In this document: positions 3,103 to 40,399 of the stretch, in pieces
How positions within the stretch are numbered: position 1 is the first letter of the stretch
Layout of the letters: every line of letters starts with the position of its first letter
Source: an uncultured Opitutia bacterium
Lineage (GTDB): Bacteria; Verrucomicrobiota; Verrucomicrobiia; Opitutales; Opitutaceae
Length of the DNA: 54,772 nucleotides
Direction: 5' to 3'
Assembly (NCBI GenBank): GCA_903827245.1
Contig: CAIKHO010000070.1
Coordinates: 1-54,772, forward strand
The notes under the pieces: model-generated
The model's input: the letters and a program-made list of their open reading frames with translations, nothing else
Databases searched by the model: none
What the model was told of the DNA's origin: nothing
Translations under genes and position numbers: made by a program

Positions 3103-3195
3103 ACACACCCCGCCCTGTCGGGCACCCCTCTTCTTAGAGGGGATCCAATCTGTTCCCCTCTATTAAGAGGGGTGGCGCTACGCGCCGGGGTGTGT
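3103..3195. repeat. Interspersed palindrome, family B copy 1 (uninterrupted)
   Basis: Outer arms ACACACCCCG and CGGGGTGTGT enclose inner arms CACCCCTCTTCTTAGAGGGG and CCCCTCTATTAAGAGGGGTG. It touches the pheA stop codon (3195-3197) and lies between two convergent genes. A second copy at 23534-23768 has the same arms but is split by another element. It could act as a bidirectional transcription stop; that is an inference. Confidence 0.85.
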
Positions 3196-5231: not shown

Positions 5232-5375
5232 TTTCGCGCAGAGGTGCGGTGGCGCAGAGCGAGCCAGCTGAAGAGAAATAGGCCTGGCGATTTCTGGATT
5301 GGACGATCCATCAAGGCCCCCGAATCCCAAGGCATTTACGTCCTCGCTCTGCGCCCCTGCGCCTCTGCGCGAAAC
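5232..5375. repeat. Interspersed palindrome, family I copy (long loop)
   Basis: Left arm TTTCGCGCAGAGGTGCGG continuing GGCGCAGAGCG pairs with the right arm CGCTCTGCGCCCCTGCGCC continuing TCTGCGCGAAA, across about 80 bases. It fills most of the gap between the divergent scpB and ilvD genes (5143-5470), so promoters for both must lie in or beside it. No other gene is seen in that gap. Confidence 0.75.
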
Positions 5376-7806: not shown

Positions 7807-10134
7807 ATGCCGAAAAACATCCCCCTGCTCGCCTCCCGGTCGCACCGCCTGCTCCCACTCATTGCGTTTGCCGCGATGGCCACGGCTCCGCTGCTCCGCG
7901 CCGCCGACTCCGCCCCGGTCGTTGCCAAGCCGGCCTCCTCCGCGGCCGTCACGGTCACCGAGGATGATAATGTCTTCACCCTCGCCAACGGGATCGTCAC
8001 GGCCCGCGTCAACAAGCGCACCGGTGAGCTGCAGGGGCTGGTCTACCAGGGCATCGACACGATGGGCCACGACCAGGGCCACTCCGGGGTCTGGGAGCAG
8101 GACCCCTCTGCGGCAGCGAAGGTCGGCGGCCTGACCCAATCCCTCACCATCGACCCGGCGAAAAACGGCGGCGCGCGCGCCGAGGTTTCCATCAAGGGCG
8201 TCACCGGCGGCAAGGCGGGCCTGACGCCCGGCTCCCCCGGCGGCGCGGCCGGTGGCACCATGAACCTGGACCTGGAAATCCGCTACGCGTTGGGCCGCGG
8301 CGAGAGCGGCGTCTATACCTACGCAATCTTTTCGCATCCCGATTCCTACGGGCCGCTCAACGTGCCGGAGAGCCGCTACGTCGCGTTTCTCAACCAGACC
8401 TTCGACTGGATCTCGGTGGACGCGGACCGCAACATGCTCGAGGCCGCGCCAACCGACTGGGGCACCGGTGTCGTCGTCCATGCCAAGGAACAGCGGATCA
8501 TGAGCAAGGGCGTCTACAAAAACTCCGTCGAGCACAAGTACAGCTACAACGCCGTGCAGTACAAAATCCCCGCCTACGGCTGGTCGAGCACCAAGGACCA
8601 TGTCGGCATCTGGTTCATCAATCCGACCATCGAGTACCTCAGCGGCGGCGCGACGAAGCAGGAGCTGGTCTGCCACTTCGGCGACAACGGCAACCCGGAC
8701 CCCATCATCCTCGATTACTGGCGCGGCACCCACTACGGCGGCGGCGCCACCGCCAGCGTCGCCGCGGGCGAAAGCTGGAACAAGGTCGTCGGTCCGATCT
8801 TCATCTACGTCAACTCGCTGTCCGCCTTTAGGACGCCCACCCCGGCCGACCTCGACACGCTGGCCGCCACGGCAGGCAACCCGACCCTCCCGAAGGCCTG
8901 GAAGGACAACCAGACCGCCTTGTGGCAGGAAGCGCTCCAGCAGGCGAAAAAGGAAACCGCGAAATGGCCCTACGACTGGGTCAATGGCGTGGACTATCCG
9001 CACAAAAATGAGCGGGGAAGCGTGACCGGCCGGCTGGTGCTCAACGACCCGCAGGCCGCCTCGACCAAGCTGCCCCATCTCACCGTGGGCCTCGCCTATC
9101 CGGATTACGTCACGGGCGGCGGCAACGTCGCACCCGCTCCCGCACCCGACGAAGCTCCCTCTCCCAAGGCGGCAGCTCCCGGCGGACCCGGTGGCGCGTC
9201 CCGGGGCGGCCGCGGCCGCGGCGGCTTCGGCGGTCCCCGCACGATCGACTGGGTGCACGACGCCAAGCACTACCAATTCTGGAACGATGGCAGCGAGGAC
9301 GGCAAATTCACCCTCACCAACGTCCGTCCCGGCACCTACACGCTGCATGCGTTTGCCGACGGCGTGCTGGGCGAATTCGCGCAGACCAACATCACCGTCG
9401 TGGCCGGCAAACCGCTCGACCTCGGCCGGCTCGAGTGGAAACCCGTCCGTTACGGGAAACAGGTCTGGGAGATCGGCTACCCGGACCGCACCGGCGGAAA
9501 ATTCTTCAAGGGCGATCGCGAGAACTACTGGCTCTGGGGCTGGGGCCTGCGTTATCCCCTGCTCTTCCCGAACGACATCACTTACACCATCGGCAAAAGC
9601 GACTACCACAAGGACTGGTTCTTCCAGCAGACCCCGCACAGCGAGACTACGGCTTGGCTGAATCCCGACGCGAAGGATCCCGCCAACCAGCGCTTCGGCT
9701 GGGTCAAGGCGGAGTCGCTCACGGAATATCCCCAAACCAACACAACGGGCCCCTGGAAGATTTACGGACGCGGCCGCGCGACCACCTGGACGATCAAGTT
9801 CAACATGGACAAGGCCGCGCAGGGCCAGGCAGCCCTCCGCATCGCGCTGGCCGGCGCCGATGCCAACGGCGGCTTGGCCGTGGCGGTCAACGGCCAGAGC
9901 GTTGGCACGATCCGGCCGGCGTCCACCAACGCCCTCCGCTACAACACCAACAAGGGCGTCTGGCAGGAACTGCCCGTGAAGTTCGACGCCACGCTGCTGA
10001 AGGCGGGTGAAAACGAAATCCAGCTCACGGTCCCCGCCGGGGAGCTCACCTCCGGCGTGGTCTACGATTACCTCCGGCTCGAACTCGACGAGAACCAGAA
10101 GTTCGAAAGCAAGCCCGTCGCGTTCGCCAACTGA
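7807..10134 (+). CDS. Secreted rhamnogalacturonan lyase, polysaccharide lyase family 4 type (paralogue 1)
   Basis: Predicted to cleave the rhamnogalacturonan-I backbone of pectin by beta-elimination outside the cytoplasm. The 775-residue product begins with a signal peptide (Arg/His-rich start, LLPLIAFAAMATAPLLRA, cut near AAD). Then comes the RhgB-like N-terminal domain (NGIVTARVNKRTGELQGLVY), the active-site region VEHKYSYNAVQYKIPAYGW and HVGIWFINPTIEYL, and a GTHYGGG stretch matching the conserved STHYAG block of plant lyases. A fibronectin-like domain (FTLTNVRPGTYTLHAFADG) and a C-terminal CBM-like domain follow. Unlike its two paralogues it has a Pro/Ala then Gly/Arg-rich insert at about residues 437-478. 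ATG 7807 is chosen because it directly precedes the signal peptide. The family call is firm; substrate is inferred. Confidence 0.92.
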   Translation: MPKNIPLLASRSHRLLPLIAFAAMATAPLLRAADSAPVVAKPASSAAVTVTEDDNVFTLANGIVTARVNKRTGELQGLVYQGIDTMGHDQGHSGVWEQDPSAAAKVGGLTQSLTIDPAKNGGARAEVSIKGVTGGKAGLTPGSPGGAAGGTMNLDLEIRYALGRGESGVYTYAIFSHPDSYGPLNVPESRYVAFLNQTFDWISVDADRNMLEAAPTDWGTGVVVHAKEQRIMSKGVYKNSVEHKYSYNAVQYKIPAYGWSSTKDHVGIWFINPTIEYLSGGATKQELVCHFGDNGNPDPIILDYWRGTHYGGGATASVAAGESWNKVVGPIFIYVNSLSAFRTPTPADLDTLAATAGNPTLPKAWKDNQTALWQEALQQAKKETAKWPYDWVNGVDYPHKNERGSVTGRLVLNDPQAASTKLPHLTVGLAYPDYVTGGGNVAPAPAPDEAPSPKAAAPGGPGGASRGGRGRGGFGGPRTIDWVHDAKHYQFWNDGSEDGKFTLTNVRPGTYTLHAFADGVLGEFAQTNITVVAGKPLDLGRLEWKPVRYGKQVWEIGYPDRTGGKFFKGDRENYWLWGWGLRYPLLFPNDITYTIGKSDYHKDWFFQQTPHSETTAWLNPDAKDPANQRFGWVKAESLTEYPQTNTTGPWKIYGRGRATTWTIKFNMDKAAQGQAALRIALAGADANGGLAVAVNGQSVGTIRPASTNALRYNTNKGVWQELPVKFDATLLKAGENEIQLTVPAGELTSGVVYDYLRLELDENQKFESKPVAFAN

Positions 10135-10146
10135 GCATTTCCCCTC

Positions 10147-10177
10147 GTAGGGGCGTTCCTTGCGGACGCCCTCGGGC
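10147..10177. repeat. Interspersed repeat, family D copy 1 (half)
   Basis: GTAGGGGCGTTCCTTGCGG followed by ACGCCCTCGGGC, 12 bases after the first lyase stop. The same text follows the second lyase, so it travelled with the duplicated unit; it also occurs after pgi. Confidence 0.75.
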
Positions 10178-10190
10178 CTCGGAACCCGGA

Positions 10191-10266
10191 ATTTCACACA
10201 GAGGCACGGAGGACACTGAGGTCGATCATCGCGAATCCTCCGTGTCCCCCATGCCTCTGTGTGAAA
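10191..10266. repeat. Interspersed palindrome, family I copy
   Basis: Left arm TTTCACACAGAGGCACGGAG pairs with the right arm CTCCGTGTCCCCCATGCCTC followed by TGTGTGAAA, across a short loop. A near-identical palindrome lies at 18179-18259. Confidence 0.8.
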
Positions 10267-10279
10267 CCACTTCCCGCAG

Positions 10280-10346
10280 TCCGAAATCCCGGATGACGCG
10301 TCTTGCTGCACGGTAGATTCCCGGTCTAAAACGACTCCACCCCGCC
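10280..10346 (+). repeat. Leader block shared by the first two PL4 genes, copy 2
   Basis: Aligned to 7741-7806 through TCCGAAATCCCGG, GACGCGTCTTGCTG and CCACCCCGCCATGC, ending at the second lyase start codon. The third lyase lacks this block. Confidence 0.7.
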
Positions 10347-12524
10347 ATGCTGAAAACCCTCCCCATGCCCGCTTTCCGCCTCCGCCGTCTCGTCGCTTTT
10401 GCAATGATTGCCACGGCTTCATCGCTCCGCGCCGCGGACACTGCCCCGGTCATCGACAAAACCACCTCCAAAGCACCGGTCACCATCACCGACAACGGCC
10501 GCTCGTGGACGCTCGACAACGGCATCGTCAAGGCGACGGTCGACAAGGGCAGCGGCCGCATGAGTTCGCTGGTCTATCACGGCGTCAACACCATCGGCGG
10601 TGGTGGCTATTGGGAGCAGACCCCGCAGAACTATCCCCAATTGACCAACACCATCACGATCGACCCTGCGGCCAACGGCGGTGAGCGCGGCGAGGTGTCG
10701 GTCAAGGGCGTGAGCGGAGGCAAAAGCTTCGACATGGAGTTCCGCTACACGCTGACCCGCGGCACCAGCGGCATCTACGTCTACGGAATCTACACGCACC
10801 CCGCCTCCTACGGCCGCATGGGTGAGGGCGAGAGCCGCTACATCACGAAGCTGAACCACTCGTTCAACTGGCTCTCGGTGGATGCCGACCGGAACCTGCT
10901 CGAATGCACCCCGGAGGACTGGGGCGCCGGCGTTGTCATCCACGCCAAGGAGCAGCGCATCCTCAGCACCGGCTACTACAAGAACACCGTCGAACACAAA
11001 TACAGCTACAACGCGGTCCAGTACAAAATTCCCGCCTACGGCTGGTCGAGCACCAAGGACCACGTCGGCGTCTGGTTCATCAATCCCACCACCGAATACC
11101 TGGCCGGCGGCGCGTCCAAGATCGAGCTGGTCGCCCACTACGACGCCAACGAGAACCCCGACCCCATCATCCTGAATTACTGGTCCGCCGGCCACTACGC
11201 CGGCGGCGCGAGCTGCAACATCCCCGCCGGCGAGGAATGGAACAAGGTCGTCGGCCCGATGCTGGTTTACTGCAACGCGCTCTCCACGGCCAAGGCCGCG
11301 TCGCCCGCCGATCTCGCCACCCTCGAGGCCACCGCTGGCAACCCGACCGTGCCACCCGCCTGGACGGCCAATGCGAACGCGCTCTTCAACGATGCGCTGT
11401 CGCAGGCAAAAACCGAAAAGTCCCGCTGGCCCTACGAGTGGGTCAACGGCGTCGACTACCCGCACAAGAACGAGCGCGCCAATGTCACCGGCCAGCTCGT
11501 GCTAAAGGACCCGCAGGCAGCCTCGACCAAGCTCCCTCACCTCACGGTCGGCCTGGCCCACCCGGATTACCCCGGCGGCAGCCCGCGCGCGGGCAACAAC
11601 GGGGTCGTCACTTGGCCGCACGATGGAAATTACTACCAGTTCTGGAATGATGGCACCGACGACGGCAAGTTCACCCTGACGAACGTGCGCGCCGGCAAAT
11701 ATACGTTGCACGCGTTCGCCGATGGCGTGCTCGGCGAGTTCGCGCAGACCGACATCACCGTCGAGGCCGGCAAGGCCCTCGACCTTGGCAAACTCGATTG
11801 GAAACCTGTGCGCTACGGGAAGCAGGTTTGGGACATCGGCTACCCCGACCGCACCGGCGGCAAGTTCTTCAAGGGCGACGGCGCCAACTACTGGCTCTGG
11901 GGCTGGTGCCTGCGCTACCCGCTGCTCTTCCCGAACGACATCACCTACACTATCGGCAAGAGCGATTACCGGAAGGACTGGTTCTTCCAGCAGACGCCGC
12001 ACAGCGAATCCCTGGCGTGGCTGAATACTGCGGCCAAGGATCCCGCCAACCAGCGCTTCGGCTGGGTCAAGACCGAGTCGGTCGCGCAATACCCGCATAC
12101 CAACGAGGCCGGTCCATGGAAGATCTACGGCAACGGCCGCGCGACCACCTGGACGATCAAGTTCAACCTCGCCAACGCGCCCAAGGGCCAGGCGACCCTG
12201 CGCGTGGCGCTGGCCGGCTCCGATGGCACGTCCGGACTCGCCAATCCCGGCGCACCCGGCGGACTCGCGGTGGGCGTCAACGGCCAGGGCGTCGGCTCCA
12301 TCCACTTCATTTCCACCAATGGCCTGCGTTACAACACCAACACCGGCGTCTGGCGGGAATACCGGCAGGCGTTCGACGCCTCGCAGCTGAAGGCCGGCGA
12401 AAACGAAATCCAGCTCACCGTCCCTGCCGGGGAACTCACCTCCGGCGTGGTGTACGATTACCTGCGGCTTGAACTCGACGAGAACCAAACGTTCGCGGGC
12501 AAGCCCGTCGCCTCGGCCAATTGA
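10347..12524 (+). CDS. Secreted rhamnogalacturonan lyase, polysaccharide lyase family 4 type (paralogue 2)
   Basis: Predicted extracellular pectin rhamnogalacturonan-I lyase, 725 residues. A signal peptide (FRLRRLVAFAMIATASSLRA, cut near AAD) precedes the RhgB-like domain (WTLDNGIVKATVDKGSGRMS). The active-site region reads VEHKYSYNAVQYKIPAYGW, HVGVWFINPTTEYLAGG and SAGHYAGGA; the His of this last block corresponds to the conserved His in the STHYAG block of plant enzymes. A fibronectin-like domain (FTLTNVRAGKYTLHAFADG) and a CBM-like domain ending VVYDYLRLELDENQ follow. It is clearly the closest relative of paralogue 1, sharing its leader block and its 3-prime family D repeat, but lacks the Gly/Arg insert. 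In-frame ATG at 10365 (MPAFRL) is a possible alternative start. Confidence 0.92.
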   Translation: MLKTLPMPAFRLRRLVAFAMIATASSLRAADTAPVIDKTTSKAPVTITDNGRSWTLDNGIVKATVDKGSGRMSSLVYHGVNTIGGGGYWEQTPQNYPQLTNTITIDPAANGGERGEVSVKGVSGGKSFDMEFRYTLTRGTSGIYVYGIYTHPASYGRMGEGESRYITKLNHSFNWLSVDADRNLLECTPEDWGAGVVIHAKEQRILSTGYYKNTVEHKYSYNAVQYKIPAYGWSSTKDHVGVWFINPTTEYLAGGASKIELVAHYDANENPDPIILNYWSAGHYAGGASCNIPAGEEWNKVVGPMLVYCNALSTAKAASPADLATLEATAGNPTVPPAWTANANALFNDALSQAKTEKSRWPYEWVNGVDYPHKNERANVTGQLVLKDPQAASTKLPHLTVGLAHPDYPGGSPRAGNNGVVTWPHDGNYYQFWNDGTDDGKFTLTNVRAGKYTLHAFADGVLGEFAQTDITVEAGKALDLGKLDWKPVRYGKQVWDIGYPDRTGGKFFKGDGANYWLWGWCLRYPLLFPNDITYTIGKSDYRKDWFFQQTPHSESLAWLNTAAKDPANQRFGWVKTESVAQYPHTNEAGPWKIYGNGRATTWTIKFNLANAPKGQATLRVALAGSDGTSGLANPGAPGGLAVGVNGQGVGSIHFISTNGLRYNTNTGVWREYRQAFDASQLKAGENEIQLTVPAGELTSGVVYDYLRLELDENQTFAGKPVASAN

Positions 12525-12535
12525 GCCTTCACCTC

Positions 12536-12587
12536 GTAGGGGCGTTCCTTGCGGACGCCCTCGGGCGGCGACAAGCACCGCCCCTAC
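12536..12587. repeat. Interspersed palindrome, family D copy 2
   Basis: GTAGGGGCGTTCCTTGCGG at the left and GCACCGCCCCTAC at the right form a short imperfect hairpin 11 bases after the second lyase stop. It corresponds to 10147-10177 after the first lyase, with a fuller right arm. Confidence 0.75.
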
Positions 12588-12644
12588 ATTCGACCCATTC
12601 TCACCTTGTTGAAGATTAATTAAAGAGGTGACGAGCGCCTGGGG

Positions 12645-12705
12645 GTAACGCGATGCTTCAGCCCGCGTCTTTTGCCTAGGAGTGCGGGCTGAAGCACCGC
12701 GCTAC
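12645..12705. repeat. Palindrome, family H (single copy here)
   Basis: Arms GTAACGCGATGCTTCAGCCC and GGGCTGAAGCACCGCGCTAC pair with few mismatches across about 20 bases. It lies in the 241-base gap before the third lyase. The sequence style is that of dispersed bacterial repeats, but no second copy occurs in the window. Confidence 0.7.
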
Positions 12706-12765
12706 TCCAGACTTTCGCCGTCTCTTCTTTGGGTAATGCTCCGTAGGTTCCAATCCCTTTTCCCC

Positions 12766-14898
12766 ATGAATACTCCCCTGTCTCTCCGACTGCGCCACCT
12801 CCTCGTGGCTACATTCGCTTCTGTCACTCTCACCCTCCCCGCACTTCGCGCCGCCGATACGGCGCCGACCGTCGCCAAGATCGCCGTCAATGCTCCAGTG
12901 ACCGTCACCGACAGCGCTGACGCCTGGATCCTCGACAATGGCATCGTCAAGGCGACGGTGCAGAAGAAGAACGGCAAGATGACCTCGCTCATCTACCAGG
13001 GCCAGGAGACGCTCACCCGCAATTCCGAGAGCTGGGAGCAACTCGCGACCGGTACCGTCACCCAGGCCATGACCATCGATCCCGCGACCAACGGCGGCGC
13101 ACGCGCCGAGGTCGCCGTGAAGGGCGTGACCGGCCGCATGGACATCGAACTGCGCTACACCCTCGAGCGCGGCGTCAGCGGCTTCTACACCTATGGCATT
13201 TACTCGCACGGCGCCAATTATCCCGCCGCGGGCGAGGGTGAGAGCCGTTTCATCAACCAGCTCACGTCCAACTTCGACTGGCTCTCGGTCGATGCCGACC
13301 GGAACATGCCGATGTGCGCCAACGCGGACACGCGCGCCGGCGTCGTCATTCACGCCAAGGAGCAGCGCATCCTCAGCACCGGCATCTACAAGGACTCGGT
13401 CGAGCACAAATACAGTTACTGCGCCGAGATGTACAAGCTGCCCGCCTACGGCTGGTCCAGCATCAAGGATCATGTCGGCATCTGGTTCATCAATCCCTCC
13501 AACGAGTACCTCGGCGGCGGCCCCACCCGGATCGACCTGGTCTGCCACATGGGCGCCACGATGCTCGATTACTGGACGTCCGGCCACTACGCCGGTGGCG
13601 CTGCCTGCAACATTCCCGCCGGGCAGGTGTGGAACAAGGTCATCGGCCCGATCTTTGTTTACTGCAACGCGCTGCAGACCGCCGTGACGCCCTCCCAGGC
13701 TGAGCTCGACACGCTGGCCGCCACCGCGGGCAACCCGACCATCCCGGCTTCGTGGACGGCCAACGCGAACGCGTTGTTCAACGACGCCCTCGAAAAAGCC
13801 AAGACCGTGAAGACCCAGTGGCCCTACGCCTGGGTGCAAGGCGTCGATTATCCCCAGAAAGACGGACGCGCCACCGTCACGGGCCGGCTCGCACTCAACG
13901 ACCCGCAGGCGGCCTCGACGAAGCTGCCGCATCTGTGGGTTGGCCTGACCCACCCGGATTTCGCCGGCGGAGGCAGCGCCTTCGCGCTGCGCTCGGGCAA
14001 CGGCAAGCTCGTCACCTGGGATCACGACGCGAATTACTACCAGTTCTGGGCCGAGGGCAGCGAGGACGGCCGGTTCTCCCTCGCGAACGTCCGCCCGGGC
14101 ACCTACACGCTGCACGCGTTTGCCGAGGGCGTGCTCGGCGAGTTCGCGCAGACCGACATCACCGTCGAGGCCGGCAAGGCGCTCGACCTCGGCCGGCTCG
14201 AGTGGAAGCCCGTCCGCTACGGCCAACAGGTCTGGGACATCGGCTACCCGGACCGCACCGGCGGAAAATTCTTCAAGGGCGACCGCGCCAACTACTGGCT
14301 CTGGGGCTGGGGCCTGCGTTACCCGCTCCTCTTCCCGAACGATATCACCTACACCATCGGCAAGAGCGACTACCACAAGGACTGGTTCTTCCAGCAGGTG
14401 CCGCACGGCGAGTCCACCGCGTGGATCAACCCTGACGCCAAGGATCCCGCCAACCAGCGCTTCGGCTGGGTGAAAGCCGAATCTCAAGCAACCTACCCGC
14501 AAACCGATCAGAACGGACCGTGGAAGATCTATGGCCATGGTCGTGCGACCACCTGGACCATCAAGTTCAACCGCGACCAGGCCGACAAGGGCCTCGCGAC
14601 CCTGCGTGTCGCGCTGGCCGGTGCCGACGGCGGGGGCGGTCTCACGGTGGGCGTCAACGGCAAGACCGTCGGCACCATCCGCACCGTCGCCACCAACGCC
14701 CTCCGCTACAACACCAACAAGGGCATGTGGCGGGAATACACCCAAGCGTTCGACGCCGCGCTGCTAAAGCCCGGCGAAAACGAAATGACCCTCACCGTCC
14801 CCGCCGGCGACCTCACCACGGGTGTCGTCTACGACTACCTCCGGCTCGAGCTCGACGAAAACGCCAAGCCGCCCGGCACGTCGGTGGCTTTAAGGTAG
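12766..14898 (+). CDS. Secreted rhamnogalacturonan lyase, polysaccharide lyase family 4 type (paralogue 3)
   Basis: Predicted extracellular pectin lyase, 710 residues, third of the tandem set. ATG 12766 gives a signal peptide (LRHLLVATFASVTLTLPALR, cut near AAD); the frame is open further upstream but that part overlaps palindrome H and looks non-coding. The RhgB-like domain reads WILDNGIVKATVQKKNGKMT. The active-site region is VEHKYSYCAEMYKLPAYGW, HVGIWFINPSNEYLGGG and TSGHYAGGA. A fibronectin-like domain (FSLANVRPGTYTLHAFAEG) and a CBM-like domain follow. It lacks eight or so residues before the GHYAGG block that the others have (ENPDPII) and its flanks differ, so it is the older duplicate. 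The three together suggest dosage or different substrate decoration. Confidence 0.92.
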   Translation: MNTPLSLRLRHLLVATFASVTLTLPALRAADTAPTVAKIAVNAPVTVTDSADAWILDNGIVKATVQKKNGKMTSLIYQGQETLTRNSESWEQLATGTVTQAMTIDPATNGGARAEVAVKGVTGRMDIELRYTLERGVSGFYTYGIYSHGANYPAAGEGESRFINQLTSNFDWLSVDADRNMPMCANADTRAGVVIHAKEQRILSTGIYKDSVEHKYSYCAEMYKLPAYGWSSIKDHVGIWFINPSNEYLGGGPTRIDLVCHMGATMLDYWTSGHYAGGAACNIPAGQVWNKVIGPIFVYCNALQTAVTPSQAELDTLAATAGNPTIPASWTANANALFNDALEKAKTVKTQWPYAWVQGVDYPQKDGRATVTGRLALNDPQAASTKLPHLWVGLTHPDFAGGGSAFALRSGNGKLVTWDHDANYYQFWAEGSEDGRFSLANVRPGTYTLHAFAEGVLGEFAQTDITVEAGKALDLGRLEWKPVRYGQQVWDIGYPDRTGGKFFKGDRANYWLWGWGLRYPLLFPNDITYTIGKSDYHKDWFFQQVPHGESTAWINPDAKDPANQRFGWVKAESQATYPQTDQNGPWKIYGHGRATTWTIKFNRDQADKGLATLRVALAGADGGGGLTVGVNGKTVGTIRTVATNALRYNTNKGMWREYTQAFDAALLKPGENEMTLTVPAGDLTTGVVYDYLRLELDENAKPPGTSVALR

Positions 14899-17255: not shown

Positions 17256-17978
17256 ATGACTGATCCCGCCGCCAATCCCTCACTCATACCCCAGGCTGGT
17301 CACCTTTACGTGGTGGCCACGCCCATCGGCAATCTCGCGGACCTCACCGAACGCGCCCGGGCCATCCTCGGCGCCGTCGATGTGGTGGCCTGCGAGGACA
17401 CCCGCACGACCGGCGCCATGCTCACCCGCTTCGGCCTCCGCCGGGAACTCCTCGCCTACCACGAGCACAACGAAACCGAGGCTGCCGAACGCCTCGCGGA
17501 AATGCTCGCGGCCGGCAAATCCATCGCCGTCGTGAGCGATGCCGGCACCCCGGGCCTGAGCGATCCCGGCTTCCGCCTCGTGCGGGCCTGCCGTCGCCGC
17601 GGCCTGCCGGTCGTCCCCGTGCCCGGCCCGAGCGCGCTGACCGCCGTCCTCAGCGCGAGCGGCCTGCCGACCAACGGCTTTCTCTTCGTGGGCTTTCTTC
17701 CGCCCAAGTCGGCCGCCCGGATCGGGTTTTTCGAGAAGTACCGCGACTTCGACTATACCCTCGCCCTCTACGAGAGCTGCCACCGCATCGACAAGGCCAT
17801 GGCCGAGATCACCGCCACCCTGGGACCTTCCCGGGTCGTCTGCATCGCCAAGGAGGTCACGAAGCTGCACGAGACGTTCCTCGTTGGCCCCGCCGCCGAC
17901 GTGGAGGCCCGCCTCGCGAAAACGAGCCTGAAGGGCGAGTTCGTCGTCCTGATCGCCCCCAAGGATTTCGAATTGTGA
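17256..17978 (+). CDS. rsmI: 16S rRNA (cytidine-1402-2'-O)-methyltransferase
   Basis: RsmI methylates the 2-prime hydroxyl of C1402 in 16S rRNA at the ribosomal P site, using S-adenosylmethionine. The 240-residue protein shows the family N-terminus HLYVVATPIGNLADLTERA, the CEDTRTTGAML stretch, the conserved AYHEHNETEAAERL, the glycine-rich VVSDAGTPGLSDPGF, and PVPGPSALTAVLSASGLP; these place it in the tetrapyrrole-methylase fold. The C-terminal LKGEFVVLIAP is typical. It is somewhat shorter than E. coli RsmI because the C-terminal extension is missing. The start ATG lies 10 bases after the upstream terminator, so the promoter or RBS must overlap it or the transcript reads through. Confidence 0.96.
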   Translation: MTDPAANPSLIPQAGHLYVVATPIGNLADLTERARAILGAVDVVACEDTRTTGAMLTRFGLRRELLAYHEHNETEAAERLAEMLAAGKSIAVVSDAGTPGLSDPGFRLVRACRRRGLPVVPVPGPSALTAVLSASGLPTNGFLFVGFLPPKSAARIGFFEKYRDFDYTLALYESCHRIDKAMAEITATLGPSRVVCIAKEVTKLHETFLVGPAADVEARLAKTSLKGEFVVLIAPKDFEL

Positions 17979-17987
17979 CATCCAAAC

Positions 17988-18037
17988 GCCAAGCCGGCAG
18001 GGCGGCGACTCCGCCCCTGTCCATCCGTAGGCTTGGC
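17988..18037. repeat. Palindrome after rsmI
   Basis: Outer arms GCCAAGCC and GGCTTGGC enclose inner GGGCGG and CCGCCC arms. It lies ten bases after the rsmI stop codon and may end that transcript, although no T run follows. Confidence 0.6.
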
Positions 18038-18088
18038 TAAGGTGGACACCGCCGGGAACGTCCTTGGTCTCGTGAACTCGTCCCCGGG

Positions 18089-18119
18089 CCCGGCGCAGAG
18101 CGGAGTGGCGCCCTACCGG
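18089..18119. repeat. Short palindrome, family K copy 1
   Basis: CCCGGCGCAGAGCGGAGTGG then CGCCCTACCGG. Matches 19670-19701 directly and 19464-19495 in inverse orientation. Confidence 0.7.
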
Positions 18120-18178
18120 ATCATCGTTACTACAACTCCGATAGGGATATAATTTCGCGCAAAGACGGGGAGAAAAGC

Positions 18179-18259
18179 AATTTCACACAGAGGCACGGAG
18201 GACGCAGAGTAATCAGCCAATGATTTATCTCTGCGCTCTCCGTGCCTCTGTGTGAAATT
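18179..18259. repeat. Interspersed palindrome, family I copy
   Basis: AATTTCACACAGAGGCACGG then AGGACGCAGAG at the left pairs almost perfectly with CTCTGCGCTCTCCGTGCCTC then TGTGTGAAATT at the right. It is the best-preserved copy of this family in the window. Confidence 0.85.
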
Positions 18260-18353
18260 CCGGATTCCGGTTCCAACGTCATGCCTTACTCCGCGGCTTT
18301 GCGTCTCTGCGCGAAACCAGCTCGGCAGGATTGGTCTCAAACTGAACCACGAC
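18252..18353. repeat. Repeat module J copy 2
   Basis: Matches 7632-7733 block by block (GTGAAATTCCGG, GCCTTACTCCGCGGC, CTCTGCGCGAAACC, ACCACGAC). It overlaps the right arm of the adjacent family I palindrome and ends 54 bases before the Ppx start. Confidence 0.75.
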
Positions 18354-18407
18354 CCAAACTCCTGCCGTCTTTCCTTTCGTGTATTTCGTGTATTTCGTGG
18401 CGACATC

Positions 18408-19346
18408 ATGCCTTCCGGACCCGTCGCCGTCATCGATATCGGCAGCAACTCGATCAAGGTGCTCATCGCCGCGCGCGATGAGACCGGCCGGCTCTCCGCC
18501 CTGAAGCTCCGCACGATCGACGCCCGCATCAGCGCCGGGCTCGGCCAGGCCGCGCCGCGGCTCAGCGAGGACGGCATGGTCCGCGGACTCGACGCCATCC
18601 GGGCGCTGCTCGCCGACGCCGCCGAATTTTCTCCCGCCCGCATCGTGCTCGTCGCCACCAGCGCCGTGCGCGACGCCGCCAACGGCCTGGAGTTCCGCGA
18701 GCGGGTGCACGCCGCGACCGGGCACACCGTCAGGCTCCTTTCCGGCGACGAAGAGGCCAATCTCATCGGTCGCGGACTGACCTGTGACCCGGCCCTCGCG
18801 GACCTGCGCGACTTCTACGTCTTCGATCTCGGTGGCGGCAGTCTCGAATGCCTCGCCTTCCGCGACCGCCGCATCGTCCAGGCGACGAGCCTGCAGCTCG
18901 GCTGCGTGCGCCTGATGGAGAAATTCGTGCCCGATCCGCAGCAGCCGGCCACGGCCGCACTCGTCACCGACATCGCCCGGCACGTGCGGGACACCTTCGC
19001 CCGCTCCGGCTTTGCCTTTTCCCTGCCCGCCGGCACCACCGCCATCGGCACCGGCGGCACCCTCACCACCGTGCGGACGATCCTCGCCGCGAAAGCCGGC
19101 CGCACGCTGGACGAAACCGATCCGCTGATCACCGTGGTGCAACTCGCCGAAATGCTCGCCTGGCTGGGACCCATGCCCCTGTCCGCACGCCGGCAGGTCG
19201 CCGGCCTGCCCCCCGCGCGGGCCGACGTCTTTCCCACCGCGCTGGGCACGATGCTCGCCCTGGCCGGAATCGGCGGTGTGAGCACCTTCCGAAATTCGCT
19301 ATACAACCTCCGTTGGGGCCTGGCAGCGGAAGCCATGGACCGATAA
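18408..19346 (+). CDS. Ppx/GppA family phosphatase (exopolyphosphatase-like)
   Basis: Predicted to hydrolyse polyphosphate or the pppGpp 5-prime phosphate. The 312 residues form the two ASKHA-fold subdomains alone: the phosphate-1 loop AVIDIGSNSIKVLIA at the very start, a second glycine-rich loop FDLGGGSLECLAF at about residue 140, and GTGGTLTTV at about 210. The C-terminal HD-like domain of E. coli Ppx is absent, as in short-form actinobacterial and thermophile enzymes. ATG 18408 is chosen because the conserved loop follows directly; the 52 open codons upstream are repeat sequence. The substrate cannot be told from sequence. Confidence 0.9.
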   Translation: MPSGPVAVIDIGSNSIKVLIAARDETGRLSALKLRTIDARISAGLGQAAPRLSEDGMVRGLDAIRALLADAAEFSPARIVLVATSAVRDAANGLEFRERVHAATGHTVRLLSGDEEANLIGRGLTCDPALADLRDFYVFDLGGGSLECLAFRDRRIVQATSLQLGCVRLMEKFVPDPQQPATAALVTDIARHVRDTFARSGFAFSLPAGTTAIGTGGTLTTVRTILAAKAGRTLDETDPLITVVQLAEMLAWLGPMPLSARRQVAGLPPARADVFPTALGTMLALAGIGGVSTFRNSLYNLRWGLAAEAMDR

Positions 19347-19463: not shown

Positions 19464-19495
19464 CCGGTAGGGCGCGGACTCCGCTCCGCGCCGGG
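19464..19495. repeat. Short palindrome, family K copy 2
   Basis: CCGGTAGGGCGCGGACTCCG then CTCCGCGCCGGG. It is the inverse of 19670-19701 and the two flank the family C element. A partial copy (CCGGTAGGGCGCGGAC) is at 26288-26303. Confidence 0.75.
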
Positions 19496-19557
19496 CATGG
19501 CTTGACCGTCAATACGAAGCCGCCAGCTCTGGCGTTGGTTGTGTATCCGTCTAAAAA

Positions 19558-19628
19558 TGCAGGAGCGGCTTTATGCCGCGAGGATTGGGCCCGCAGCGCG
19601 AACCATCGCGGCATAAAGCCGCTCCTAC
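19558..19628. repeat. Interspersed palindrome, family C copy 1
   Basis: Arms AGGAGCGGCTTTATGCCGCG and CGCGGCATAAAGCCGCTCCT around a 24-base loop starting GGATTGGGCC. A second copy is at 39509-39578, where the loop is inverted but the outside flanks keep the same orientation. Confidence 0.88.
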
Positions 19629-19669
19629 CTCCAATCACCGGCAAATTGATCCACTACACTGTCGTTGTT

Positions 19670-19701
19670 CCCGGCGCGGAGCGGAATCCGCGCCCTACCG
19701 G
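19670..19701. repeat. Short palindrome, family K copy 3
   Basis: CCCGGCGCGGAGCGGAATCC then GCGCCCTACCGG, inverse of 19464-19495. Confidence 0.75.
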
Positions 19702-23533: not shown

Positions 23534-23768
23534 ACACACCCCGCCCTGCGGGCACCCCTCTCAAGAGGGGAGCTCAGACCCCGGCCAAGGTTGCCTTAAC
23601 CGGGACGATGCCGTCGCCGGTAGCAGCCGACGGGAGGAGCCTGGTTTGAGGTGAGTCACCAAACCCAGCCTCGTGACCTCGGCTGCTACACCGATCGCTG
23701 CGGTTCAACGGCATCGTTCCGGCTTGGCTCCCCTCTAAAAAGAGGGGTGCCCGCAGGGCGGGGTGTGT
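23534..23768. repeat. Family B palindrome copy 2, split by family A
   Basis: Left arm ACACACCCCGCCCTGCGGGC then ACCCCTCTCAAGAGGGGAG, right arm CTCCCCTCTAAAAAGAGGGG then TGCCCGCAGGGCGGGGTGTG T. In copy 1 (3103-3195) the two arms are only about 20 bases apart; here they are about 155 apart, with family A copy 1 between them. Confidence 0.85.
23599..23724. repeat. Large nested palindrome, family A copy 1
   Basis: Outer arms CCGGGACGATGCCGT and ACGGCATCGTTCCGG. Inner arms GTAGCAGCCGACGGGAGGAG and CTCGTGACCTCGGCTGCTAC around GGTTTGAGGTGAGTCACC. Matches 30493-30600 and 33281-33404. Confidence 0.88.
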
Positions 23769-29289: not shown

Positions 29290-30396
29290 ATGGCTACCAG
29301 CGTGAAATCCACCCGAAACTACCTCATTCTCGTCCTCTCCATCATTGTCATCGGCGGTGGAGCCGTTGCCTGGCAGCAATATCAGGAACTCGTCGCCCTG
29401 CGGGCGGCGGCGCTGAGCGCCGATGATCGAGCCAGCCTGCAAAAGAAATTGTGGGACGCGGAAAAGCGTGCGCGCGAACTTGAAGCTCAGCTCGCGGCGG
29501 CCGACCAGGCCAGCCCGGCGGATGCCATCGTGGCGGCGGCAGCCGACGCGACCACCCCTGCGGGCGGACGCGGCGGTCGTGGCGCCCGGGGCAATATGAC
29601 GCCGGCGCAACAGGCCGCCCTGCAGGCCCTCATGCAAAACCCCCAGGTGCAGAGCTTGCTCGCCCAGCAGCAAAAAGCCGCCCTGACCGCCCGCTATGCC
29701 GCGCTGATCAAGAATCTCAATCTTACTCCCGAACAGGGCGACAAGCTGGTTAGTCTTGTCGCTGACTCGCAGTCGGCCCGGCAGGACGCCATGGCCGCGG
29801 CGCGGGCCGCCGGGATCAATCCGCAGACCGATCCCCAAGGTGTCCAGAAGATGCTGGCCGATGCCCAGGCCCAGTCCGACGCGGCCATGAAGGCGACCCT
29901 CGGCGACACCGCCTTTGCCGCGCTGCAGCAATACAACCAGACGATGCCCCAGCGCAATCTGGTCAGCCAACTGCAACAGCAGCTCACCTTGAGCGCCCCT
30001 CTAACATCCGACCAGTCGGAGCAATTGGTCCAAATCCTTGCCGCCACCGCCCCCCAAGGTGCCGGCGGTGGTGGAGGAGGCCGGGGCTTTGGCGGAGGCG
30101 GTTTCGGCGGCGGTGGCTTCGGAGCCGTGGCCGCGCTCGGTGGCGGTGGTGGCTTTGGTGGAGGCGGCGGTTTTGGCGCCGGTGGCGGTGGTTTCGGCGG
30201 AGCCCAAATCACGCAGGCTGCCATCACCCAGGCCCAGGCCGTGCTCGCACCCGCCCAGGTGCAGGCGCTGCAGCAGCTCCAGCAGGCCCAGCAGGTGCAA
30301 AGGCAGATGCAGCAGATCATGGGCGGTCGCGGCGGCGGCGGTGGCGGCCGTCGCGGTGGTGGTGCCGCGGCAGGTGGCGCGGCCGGCGGCGGTTGA
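29290..30396 (+). CDS. Membrane-anchored Gly/Gln-rich protein, unknown function
   Basis: No family recognised. The 368 residues have a short basic N-terminus, one membrane segment (YLILVLSIIVIGGGAVAW, residues 11-28), and a heptad-like coiled coil (about 35-75). A helical region about 100-240 reads like a Spy/CpxP- or heavy-metal-sensor-like helical bundle (LIKNLNLTPEQGDKLVSLVA, then LGDTAFAALQQYNQTMPQR). A Gly/Phe-rich tract of about 60 residues made of GGGFGG units (258-315) follows, then a Gln-rich helix (QALQQLQQAQQVQRQMQQIM) and a Gly/Arg tail. LTPEQ and LTSDQSEQL recur and are typical of LTXXQ-motif envelope proteins, so an envelope-facing role is plausible. Low-complexity DNA may be unstable in length. 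Confidence 0.85.
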   Translation: MATSVKSTRNYLILVLSIIVIGGGAVAWQQYQELVALRAAALSADDRASLQKKLWDAEKRARELEAQLAAADQASPADAIVAAAADATTPAGGRGGRGARGNMTPAQQAALQALMQNPQVQSLLAQQQKAALTARYAALIKNLNLTPEQGDKLVSLVADSQSARQDAMAAARAAGINPQTDPQGVQKMLADAQAQSDAAMKATLGDTAFAALQQYNQTMPQRNLVSQLQQQLTLSAPLTSDQSEQLVQILAATAPQGAGGGGGGRGFGGGGFGGGGFGAVAALGGGGGFGGGGGFGAGGGGFGGAQITQAAITQAQAVLAPAQVQALQQLQQAQQVQRQMQQIMGGRGGGGGGRRGGGAAAGGAAGGG

Positions 30397-30492
30397 GCTG
30401 CAAGCCCACCTTCGCAACGGCCTCCATGTCTAAGAGCGCACTTTTATGTGCGCCCCGGCGTCAATTCCCAGGAAACAGCCGTTGTTCGTAGT

Positions 30493-30600
30493 CCCGGTAG
30501 CAGCCGACGTGAGGAGGCTGGTTTGAGGTGAGTCACCGAACCAAGCCTCGTTTCCTCGGCTGCTACATCGATCACTGCGGTTCAATTGCATCGCTCCGAC
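30493..30600. repeat. Large nested palindrome, family A copy 2 (left outer arm lost)
   Basis: GTAGCAGCCGACGTGAGGAG then GCTGGTTTGAGGTGAGTCAC at the left pairs with GCCTCGTTTCCTCGGCTGC at the right. The right outer arm TTGCATCGCTCCGAC is present but has no full partner. Confidence 0.85.
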
Positions 30601-30662
30601 TTAGGCCGGGCCCTGCAAGGAGGCGGCCTACAGATCAAAAGATCGCCACTTTGCCCAGCCGG

Positions 30663-30690
30663 CCCAGTGTCAACTATTGGCTGACACTGG
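30663..30690. promoter_or_regulatory. Perfect 9-base inverted repeat upstream of the aldolase gene
   Basis: CCAGTGTCA and TGACACTGG separated by 9 bases (ACTATTGGC), about 150 bases before the start codon. The arms and spacing suit a dimeric repressor or activator site; the protein is unknown. Confidence 0.4.
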
Positions 30691-30766
30691 ACTGGATTGA
30701 GCCCCCCGCATCGCGCAGCCGTGCCGATGCAGCGCAGGGGTCAACTTGCCGGGTCCCAACCCAATT

Positions 30767-30780
30767 GCGGAATATTCCGC
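30767..30780. promoter_or_regulatory. Perfect palindrome at a possible -35 region of the aldolase gene
   Basis: GCGGAATATTCCGC is a perfect 14-base palindrome. It directly precedes TTGTGA (30781-30786), which with CTACGG 17 bases downstream could be a weak promoter. A regulator bound here would overlap the -35 element. Confidence 0.4.
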
Positions 30781-30837
30781 TTGTGACTGCTTTGTGGTGG
30801 GGGCTACGGTGCACTTCCTGCTGAACCCATCACCGCC

Positions 30838-33280: not shown

Positions 33281-33404
33281 GCCGGAACGATGCAGTCGCG
33301 GTAGCAGCCGACGTGAGGAGGCTGGTTTGAGGTGAGTCAGCAAACCCATCCTCGTTACCTCGGCTGCTACATGGATAGGTGCGGTTCAACTGCATCGTTC
33401 CGGC
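33281..33404. repeat. Large nested palindrome, family A copy 3 (best preserved)
   Basis: Outer arms GCCGGAACGATGCAGT and ACTGCATCGTTCCGGC are a perfect 16-base match. Inner arms GTAGCAGCCGACGTGAGGAG and CTCGTTACCTCGGCTGCTAC surround a central GGTTTGAGGTGAGTCAGC AA region. It begins at the base after the protease stop codon. Confidence 0.92.
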
Positions 33405-38461: not shown

Positions 38462-39343
38462 TCACAGCGCGAGTCCGGCGCCCAGCAGGATCGCGTAGAG
38501 GATGAGCAGCCGGCCGGTGTCGCCCAGCAGGACAATCAGTTCGCCCGGGGTCTGGCCGGACCGCAGGCGCCCGTAGTGACGCCACCCGAGCGGGATGAGC
38601 AGCCCGGGCAACAACACCGCCATCGAAAAGCCCCGGGCCCACAGCAACAGCGGTACGAGGAACGCGACCGCGAGCGAGAGTCCGAATTGCGCTCGCGCAA
38701 AGCCCCGGCCGAAGCGGACGACCAGCGTGCGCTTGCCTGCCGCCTCATCGGTCGCGGCATCCCGGTAATTGTTCACGACGAGAATATTTGCCGCCAGCAG
38801 GCCGATGGGAACGGCGACGGCCAGGGCCGCTCCGCTGAAGTGACCGGCCTGCACGAAGTAGGTCGTACTGACCGCGACGAGTCCGAAAAATATGAACACG
38901 AACAGATCGCCGAGTCCCAGATAGGCGAGCGGCCACGGGCCTCCCGTGTAGGCAATGCCGCTGATGATGCTCGCCACCCCCACGGCGACCAGCCACGGCC
39001 CGCCCCAGTGCACCAAGGTCAGCCCCAGAAAAAATGCCACAGCGAACGTGCCAGCCAGCGCACGTCGCATCACCGCCGGCGCGACCAGCCCGGCCGCCAC
39101 GGCCCGGCGCGGCCCCACCCGGGCGGCCGTGTCCGCTCCCTTCAGGAAGTCGTAGTAGTCATTCGCAAAATTAGTGCCGATCTGCACGAGCAGCGCAAAC
39201 CCCAGGCACAACAGTGCCGCCAAGGGATCAAGTTTCCCGTCATGCCAGGCCAGCGCCGAGCCCACCACCACCGGCGCCACCGCCGCCGGCAGTGTGCGCG
39301 GACGGGCCGCGTCCAGCCAGATCTGGTTTCGCGTCGGCGTCAT
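38462..39343 (-). CDS. menA: 1,4-dihydroxy-2-naphthoate polyprenyltransferase
   Basis: Attaches the polyprenyl tail to dihydroxynaphthoate in the membrane, the penultimate step of menaquinone synthesis. The 293-residue UbiA-fold protein has eight or nine membrane segments. The first prenyl-diphosphate motif is FANDYYDFLKGAD (residues 59-71), the second is NNYRDAATDEAAGKRTL. The N-terminal WLDAARPRTLPAAVAPVVVG is typical of MenA rather than of UbiA. The gene overlaps none of its neighbours: kup ends 15 bases away in the opposite orientation. Together with menB it shows that menaquinone is made, although the other men genes are elsewhere or a futalosine route is absent. Confidence 0.95.
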   Translation of the reverse strand: MTPTRNQIWLDAARPRTLPAAVAPVVVGSALAWHDGKLDPLAALLCLGFALLVQIGTNFANDYYDFLKGADTAARVGPRRAVAAGLVAPAVMRRALAGTFAVAFFLGLTLVHWGGPWLVAVGVASIISGIAYTGGPWPLAYLGLGDLFVFIFFGLVAVSTTYFVQAGHFSGAALAVAVPIGLLAANILVVNNYRDAATDEAAGKRTLVVRFGRGFARAQFGLSLAVAFLVPLLLWARGFSMAVLLPGLLIPLGWRHYGRLRSGQTPGELIVLLGDTGRLLILYAILLGAGLAL

Positions 39344-39508
39344 GTCGCCCCGCGCCGCGTCGGCGGGTGCCCCGTGGACGGAACGACATCCGCAGGTCCG
39401 CGAAAAAAAATGATGACAGCATGCATTCGGGCGAGAGGGACCAAAACAAATGGCCGGTCGGCCTGTGTCAAAGGTTGACCACGGCCGGTCGTGTATCGGT
39501 TTGAAAAC

Positions 39509-39578
39509 GTAGGAGCGGCTTTACGCCGCGATGCCTTGCTCGACAGGCCCAATCCTCGCGGCGTAAAGCCGCTCCTAC
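39509..39578. repeat. Interspersed palindrome, family C copy 2
   Basis: Arms GTAGGAGCGGCTTTACGCCG and CGGCGTAAAGCCGCTCCTAC. The 24-base loop reads inverted relative to copy 1 (19558-19628), while the outside flanks (TGTATC left, CCGGTAAACTGA right) match in the same orientation. Confidence 0.88.
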
Positions 39579-39616
39579 ATCAGATTGCCGGTAAACTGAC
39601 TGCCCCACGGCTAATG

Positions 39617-40399
39617 TCAGAGCTCCTGTACCCGGTAGCTCTCCCCCGGCGGGATTCCGAGCTCGGCCTCCAAGTCGCGAATCCGTGCCAGCACCAAGTC
39701 CGCCGCGGCAGCTTCATCATTGCGGGGCAGGCCGGCATGCAGTGCCACCAGCCACGCCAGCGCCTCCGTCTTGCGCCCTGCGCGCCGCAGCATTTCCGCA
39801 TGCAACCGGGCCGCATAGCGCGGCGCGCCCGGTTGCCCGGCCGCGCGGCGGTATTCCTCCGCGGCAGCCGCAGGATCGTGGAGGCAGTTAATCCGGATAT
39901 TGGCGCGCTCGATGAAGACCGCCGGTGATGCCGGATGAAATTTCAGGGCCGCATCGAGCCACGCCAGGGCCAGATGGGCCTGATCCGACTCAATGCGTCG
40001 CGCCACCCCACCCGCCCCGACCGCGCGGCCGCCAAGCGCGGCCACGCGCCAGGCGGGCATGTCGTAGGCCATCATCCGGGCGCCATTGAGCCAGAACACC
40101 AGCGGCCGGGGATCCAGCGCAGTGACGAGGCGCAGGTTCTGCATCGCGCCCGGCAAGTCGCGTTTTTCCCAGAGCACATTCACGCGCAGCCATAAAAAAT
40201 CCGCCGCCAGGGTGCGAAATCCGCCGAGCAATGCGCCACCACGGACCAGGCCCGCCGCGCCATCCGGAAAATCAACGCGCCACGAGGACTGGCGCAGGCG
40301 TAGCGCCGCACGGGTCGGTGCCACCAGCGCCCGGCCCAGTCCGCCGGCAGTTCCCAGCGCCAGCACGGTGACCGCAACGGTAATGAAGCTAGATTTCAC
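39617..40399 (-). CDS. Membrane-anchored TPR-like protein of unknown function
   Basis: 260 residues, started here at a GTG (40399) that overlaps the end of the upstream permease gene, so translation is probably coupled. The frame is open to 40429 but that part lies within the permease. An N-terminal membrane segment (FITVAVTVLALGTAGGL) is followed by a short linker and a helical region with repeats of about 34 residues: LRLVTALDPRPLVFWLNGAR, LAWLDAALKFHPASPAVFIE and KTEALAWLVALHAGLPRNDE. These have TPR-like spacing. No family named. Last gene of the operon with the ABC ATPase and permease, so it may assist that transporter or the complex it modifies. Confidence 0.83.
   Translation of the reverse strand: MKSSFITVAVTVLALGTAGGLGRALVAPTRAALRLRQSSWRVDFPDGAAGLVRGGALLGGFRTLAADFLWLRVNVLWEKRDLPGAMQNLRLVTALDPRPLVFWLNGARMMAYDMPAWRVAALGGRAVGAGGVARRIESDQAHLALAWLDAALKFHPASPAVFIERANIRINCLHDPAAAAEEYRRAAGQPGAPRYAARLHAEMLRRAGRKTEALAWLVALHAGLPRNDEAAAADLVLARIRDLEAELGIPPGESYRVQEL

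Follow-up and report, generated by a model that had tools for sequence, protein, structure and literature searches.

At 23.5 kb in a 54,772-nucleotide contig of an uncultured Opitutia bacterium (the window; contig C70 of a 3.55-Mb genome, G000, that is 97% complete), the two arms of one palindrome, family B, enclose the whole of another, family A. The locus raises the question of whether A entered a B that was already there, whether palindromes of one class seek out those of another, and what moves such palindromes. With a probability of roughly two in three, we read the locus as two stacked mobile elements, and the pair of B-type palindromes that elsewhere flanks a DUF559 gene as forming, together with that gene, a homing-type selfish element.

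Family A within family B

The interval and the copies compared with it comprise the following features (window coordinates):

23534-23768, no strand assigned: family B palindrome with its tails outward (tail-hairpin-spacer-hairpin-tail), interrupted by A
23534-23561, plus strand: left arm of B, 28 nt, from a perfect inverted repeat
23555-23570, plus strand: left inner hairpin of B, CCCCTCTCAAGAGGGG, from the sequence
23595-23599, plus strand: left copy of the target duplication of A, CTTAA
23600-23722, plus strand: family A, a miniature element bearing terminal inverted repeats (TIRs), from an alignment of 40 copies
23620-23689, plus strand: core of A, two inverted GTAG-tagged REP-like hairpins, from the sequence by eye
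23723-23727, plus strand: right copy of the target duplication of A, CTTGG
23730-23747, plus strand: right inner hairpin of B, CCCCTCTAAAAAGAGGGG, from the sequence
23741-23768, plus strand: right arm of B, 28 nt, from a perfect inverted repeat
3103-3195, no strand assigned: B copy without interruption
33282-33403, plus strand: un-nested A copy; the corresponding stretch of the congener G017 is without A

An earlier note on this DNA had described an interrupted B with A between its arms, and this description holds: the arms form a perfect 28-nt inverted repeat with 179 nt between them, A lies within the spacer, and B is uninterrupted at 3103-3195. The B unit runs CCCCTCT..AGAGGGG, then GGC..GCC, then GGGGTGTGT, and has matches at 17 places in the genome, some of them half copies and two of them the arms beside a DUF559 gene. 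Three B copies (L013, L016 and L017) carry a further insert like GTCGGCCGTAGCNTTNGCGAAGGC in the right arm. Folded as a single DNA strand, the A-free B of the congener reaches z = -12 against shuffles. Family A is found at no fewer than 40 places in the genome, the 23.5-kb copy included (40 of 141 first-look candidates were scored). Both the copy number of A and the perfect repeat of B are far beyond chance.

Family A belongs to the miniature elements: a GTAG-REP-like core lies between terminal inverted repeats. The aligned copies have CCGGAACGATGCAGTYG inverted repeats at both ends, abutted on either side by CTNAR, and the target duplication is 5 bp long and of the CTNAG type. Over the 40 copies, the flanking 5-mers match at 136 of 200 positions versus 119.9 with the right ends permuted (p 0.0007), identical 5-mers number 9 versus 2.9 (p 0.001), and the middle base agrees in 23 copies versus 11.5 (p 0.0004). 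CTNA stands on both sides in just 16 of the 40, from which it appears that many copies have decayed. Searching the genome with a pattern of the A ends returned 104 places (56 and 48 by strand), against 2 and 7 for the control. With its short length, TIRs and target duplication, A resembles the MITEs, as does family C (below); a parent transposase for A was not found in this genome, with no clear pair of ends round a transposase among the end-pattern places listed.

The two checks proposed in the earlier note, for duplications at the A/B junction and for a relative with B intact at this site, both gave a positive answer. The duplication is the one described above, significant over the 40 copies, and the relative is G017 (same genus, 98% complete), in which the orthologous gap (G017:C24) contains B and lacks A. 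With A and one 5-mer taken out, the window B is 107 bp long, as is that of G017, and it aligns with the reverse complement of the latter at 99 of 107 positions free of gaps; if the G017 copy is left as it is, the alignment needs gaps and has 88 identities in 112 columns. Hence, B was complete when A entered it, and its orientation has flipped in one of the two lineages; A was inserted at a CTNAG-type site in the spacer of a pre-existing B, with 5 bp duplicated. The orientation of B is opposite between the congeners at this one site (window 23534-23768 versus L115 1434-1540). In a further relative, G061, the orthologous gap has neither A nor B and a different palindrome instead, which makes it unusable as an empty B site. 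REP dimers inside longer palindromes have been reported before, for example the GTAG-REP of Anabaena variabilis (PMC3733652, section 7); A is nested like these, and here the nesting comes with a target duplication and an empty site. That A and B are a single composite element, as their joint occurrence at 23.5 kb might suggest, was rejected and has next to no probability: 39 other listed A places and 16 other B places lie separately, the duplication round A is sharp, and the congener carries B alone.

Family C between K arms and the frequency of nesting

A second nest lies at 19464-19701:

19464-19495, plus strand: left arm of K, GTAG-tagged and REP-like by eye
19529-19537, plus strand: left copy of the target duplication of C, CTGGCGTTG, by eye
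19538-19658, plus strand: family C element with TIR GGTAGTGTATC.. and a GTAG-tagged REP-like core
19659-19667, plus strand: right copy of the target duplication of C, CTGTCGTTG, by eye
19670-19701, minus strand: right arm of K

The inverted K arms flanking C at 19464-19701, likewise described before, are borne out as a 32-nt inverted repeat that is 97% complementary. C is repeated in the genome (40 of 138 candidates were scored), and duplications of 8-9 bp are seen by eye in several of 21 aligned copies (L041, L048 and the window copy); none is visible by eye in L036 and L053. K and C are both missing from G017, so that the congener offers no empty K/C site. Judged from the sequence, the window C was very likely inserted between the K arms. 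The earlier proposal that nesting arises by insertion is accordingly upheld for A in B by the duplication and the relative with an intact B; for C in K it has the 8-9-bp duplication seen by eye, and the empty site was not seen in the congener.

The stronger proposal, that one class of palindrome targets others, finds no support. Only three of the 40 A copies lie inside another inverted repeat (flanks of at least 27 bits), these being the window copy, L007 and the doubtful L095, and among the C copies just one of 23 does. The A flanks fit CTNAG, and the C duplications have no evident common motif. A preference of A for palindromes was rejected on these counts (two clear cases and one doubtful), which make nesting an occasional event. 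The second clear A nest, L007, has A within a TTTCGCGCAGAGG palindrome.

Elsewhere in the window, three tandem repeats of ~2.4 kb (7894-14862), 66-89% alike and present in G017 too, are probably a tandem gene family. The palindrome content of the gaps at 17960-18440, 30300-30790 and 39320-39690 is unlike that of the congener, and the turnover of intergenic palindromes between the two looks fast. Known RNA families in the window at gathering scores amount to one tRNA and nothing else.

DUF559 genes and the palindromes that flank them

DUF559 genes tend to sit near CCCCTC/GAGGGG repeats, and a link with B was expected before the search. The only DUF559 match of the genome (C51:8392-8700) is situated between inverted B arms (C51:8308-8355 and 8756-8797). 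DUF559 matches are found in 17 of 150 genomes of the family: flanking inverted repeats are present at eight of the nine strong ones, the ninth (L069) being close to a contig end, and at none of ten weak ones (flanking repeat at E <= 1e-3), six of which are in frames of more than 1000 aa.

A wider sample, from named genomes, was made up of 80 loci, the best among 533 relatives of a single query, and is biased toward the relatives of that query; 78 loci with both flanks were used for the flank test, with control windows 2.1-2.5 kb away at the same loci. At a threshold of 27 bits, inverted repeats are present at 60 of the 78 loci and in 0 of 55 control windows (61 versus 8 at 24 bits or more), and 45 loci reach 40 bits. 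Eight of the 11 loci outside Pseudomonadota, counted by hand, reach 27 bits. Swapping flanks between loci still gives 91 of 400 at 27 bits, which counts against the homing reading and reflects the likeness of the repeats of different loci. The flanking unit is a hairpin, often followed by a second stem, and then a tail such as GGGTGAGGGG. Hairpins stand on both sides at 58 of 80 loci, a count with no control of its own, and in 117 CCYTC-type hairpin flanks the G tail is gene-side in 90 and outer in 16, by a pattern written after the flanks had been viewed. Ten genomes with DUF559 loci hold 93, 60, 24, 83, 73, 82, 80, 37, 26 and 8 such hairpins and two others (the genomes with the Sphingobium and Legionella loci, where other hairpins occur) hold 0; the reversed pattern gives 0 in all 12. 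The Afipia genome has 26 hairpin places, of which 20 regions were examined and 12 had a recognised tail; at 11 of these 12, by eye, a second tail faces the first across a short spacer, as in the gene-bearing unit without its gene. B-type palindromes are linked with DUF559 over several phyla, and B is similar in build to a type of palindrome found across phyla, a hairpin with a G-rich tail, which flanks DUF559 genes in inverted orientation and has gene-less copies in the same genomes.

The class of the palindrome follows the DUF559 tree beyond what host order gives. Over 70 loci it changes 15 times, versus 31.5 in free shuffles and 20.4 in shuffles within host order, of which 0 of 200 are as low as 15; the sample is lopsided (63 of the 70 labelled loci are from Pseudomonadota) and the resolution of the tree is low, and the pattern could be accounted for by joint inheritance.

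The residues D53, E64, D66 and H70, putative catalytic residues among them, are invariant across 36 DUF559 proteins. Profile searches of the PDB match 3hrl and, at 5.7e-5, 3r3p; further matches had E > 0.1 and were taken as chance. A structural model (pLDDT 89) superimposes on the catalytic domain of I-Bth0305I with a TM score of 0.72 (by target length); the match to Vsr is weaker. The predicted fold and the conserved residues are those of EDxHD/Vsr-type homing endonucleases, a placement in the EDxHD homing family that a paper on Thermosynechococcus also gives for a DUF559 gene.

The strongest sign of mobility, as far as aligned alleles can give one, comes from relatives whose DUF559 unit interrupts a type I restriction R gene without breaking its reading frame (L065, L066 and L068; L070 was left out). 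The R gene of L065 has HSDR_N, helicase domains and two DUF559 stretches, and those of L066 and L068 were assigned by alignment to it. The states of three sites are:

hsdR site 1: L068 full (palindrome and DUF559); L065 and L066 with the palindrome only
hsdR site 2: all three states, with L065 full, L066 bearing the palindrome only and L068 empty
hsdR site 3: L065 full; L066 and L068 both empty

L066 has a full DUF559 unit of its own at another position. Alleles with and without the insertion at one site are thereby seen for the hsdR units of these relatives, not for those of B itself. Palindromes lying in frame within protein genes are known as the Rickettsia palindromic elements; the hsdR units are like these in their in-frame insertion and differ in that some copies carry a nuclease gene.

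In the homing reading, the DUF559 nuclease, related to EDxHD/Vsr enzymes, is predicted to cut DNA that is similar to the palindrome or directly adjoins it. Repair of the break would copy the palindrome into the cut, with or without the DUF559 gene, and loss of the gene would leave bare palindromes such as B. B would then be a gene-less form of a mobile palindrome linked to a homing nuclease, and we infer its spread by DUF559 homing or mobilisation from sequence comparisons. Several observations count against this reading: 18 of the 78 loci have no flanking repeat at 27 bits; the orientation of the unit varies, with tails that face the gene at L064 and at alphaproteobacterial loci and point outward at hsdR and in B; G017 matches the B arms at some ten places and has no DUF559 match; and B lacks a defined target duplication. 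The DUF559 protein shares its fold and conserved residues with EDxHD homing endonucleases such as I-Bth0305I, which the system also resembles in the empty, mini and full states of one hsdR site. I-Bth0305I is listed among group I intron homing endonucleases in PMC3943268; here no intron or intein was noticed, and the carrier of DUF559 is a palindrome with many gene-less copies.

A different mover, a Y1 transposase (RAYT/TIRYT) or another transposase acting on B in trans with DUF559 as a passenger that tends to land there, is unlikely. Like REP/REPIN systems with their RAYTs, the present palindromes are intergenic, of high copy number and in inverted pairs, and their gene is flanked by the same units; that gene, when linked to B, is a nuclease of the EDxHD/Vsr type and not an HUH Y1 transposase. 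Of the 150 family genomes, 135 have Y1 transposases, and both congeners are among these; TIRs bearing a GGGGWSAS motif are reported next to Y1 genes in section 16 of PMC3733652. Many DUF559-linked palindromes have a GGGGTGAG tail that fits this motif, but the GGGGTGTG of B itself does not. Moreover, the 97% complete genome of the window has no Y1_Tnp match, CCYTC-type palindromes were at 0 of 17 usable Y1 loci (from the 30 best of the family), and 60 of 78 DUF559 loci have the flanking inverted palindromes; a RAYT as the mover of B was rejected on the first two of these. The cores of A and C, and K, have by eye the GTAG tag and the hairpins in inverted pairs that mark REPINs, a GTAG class of REPs being described in PMC3733652. 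G000 holds these GTAG-tagged, REP-like families without a Y1_Tnp match and hence without a RAYT gene for them, in a family in which most genomes have Y1.

Slightly less likely again is that the palindromes serve the host, as terminators, in supercoiling or as repair sites, with DUF559 a repair nuclease kept near its substrate. Host roles have been proposed for REPs (PMC3733652), and the Vsr-like DUF559 protein VsrA of Caulobacter is supposed to act in DNA mismatch repair (PMC12907096); some DUF559 members may serve the host, which again counts against homing. The in-frame hsdR insertions, with one site in three states and two in two, and the fast palindrome turnover between congeners nevertheless fit mobile DNA better.

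GxxExxY genes and a possible wider class of selfish palindromes

GxxExxY (PF13366) nuclease genes show a palindrome linkage parallel to that of DUF559. Such genes match in 164 of 288 genomes of the phylum, and the genome of the window has two, L127 (G000:C63) and L128 (G000:C21). The inverted arms of L127 match the CGCAGAGG palindrome family of the window; L128 fails the flank test, with a 10-nt inverted match of 19.3 bits, and by eye has TTACAGGAGG/CCTCCTGTAA words on both sides. In a test of these two together with 30 loci from the phylum, 25 of 32 have flanks of at least 30 bits versus 15 of 300 swapped pairs, and 24 of the 30 loci with full flanks do versus 1 of 30 far windows. The arms flanking GxxExxY/PDDEXK_3 genes hold repeats of a word of 6-7 bases. 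Gene-less palindromes similar in look occur in the window at 5232-5374 and at two further places:

10192-10266, no strand assigned: palindrome with CACAGAGGCACGGAG words, resembling GxxExxY-flanking arms by eye
18179-18259, no strand assigned: second palindrome of this kind, by eye

It is possible, at somewhat less than even odds, that small PD-(D/E)XK-like nucleases spread palindromes by homing as a general selfish class with very many gene-less copies, a class that would span DUF559 with palindromes of the hairpin-plus-G-tail kind and GxxExxY/PDDEXK_3 with triple-word arms of the TTAACCACGAAG type. A search by title and the start of the abstract, with most subscription journals outside it, found no paper on a linkage of DUF559 or GxxExxY with palindromes among those listed, and such work may be in print. 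According to PMC3733652, one large REP class (CGTC) is apparently without a dedicated transposase.

The hsdR sites with their empty, mini and full states are ready substrates for a homing assay. The palindromes that flank nuclease genes suggest a little-noticed class of selfish DNA, and the common presence of a nuclease gene between them provides a testable origin for abundant bacterial palindromic repeats. DUF559 and GxxExxY proteins, so far named by motif only, gain a likely role. If the general reading is true, many "unexplained" intergenic palindromes of bacteria would be remnants of nuclease homing and not of transposases.
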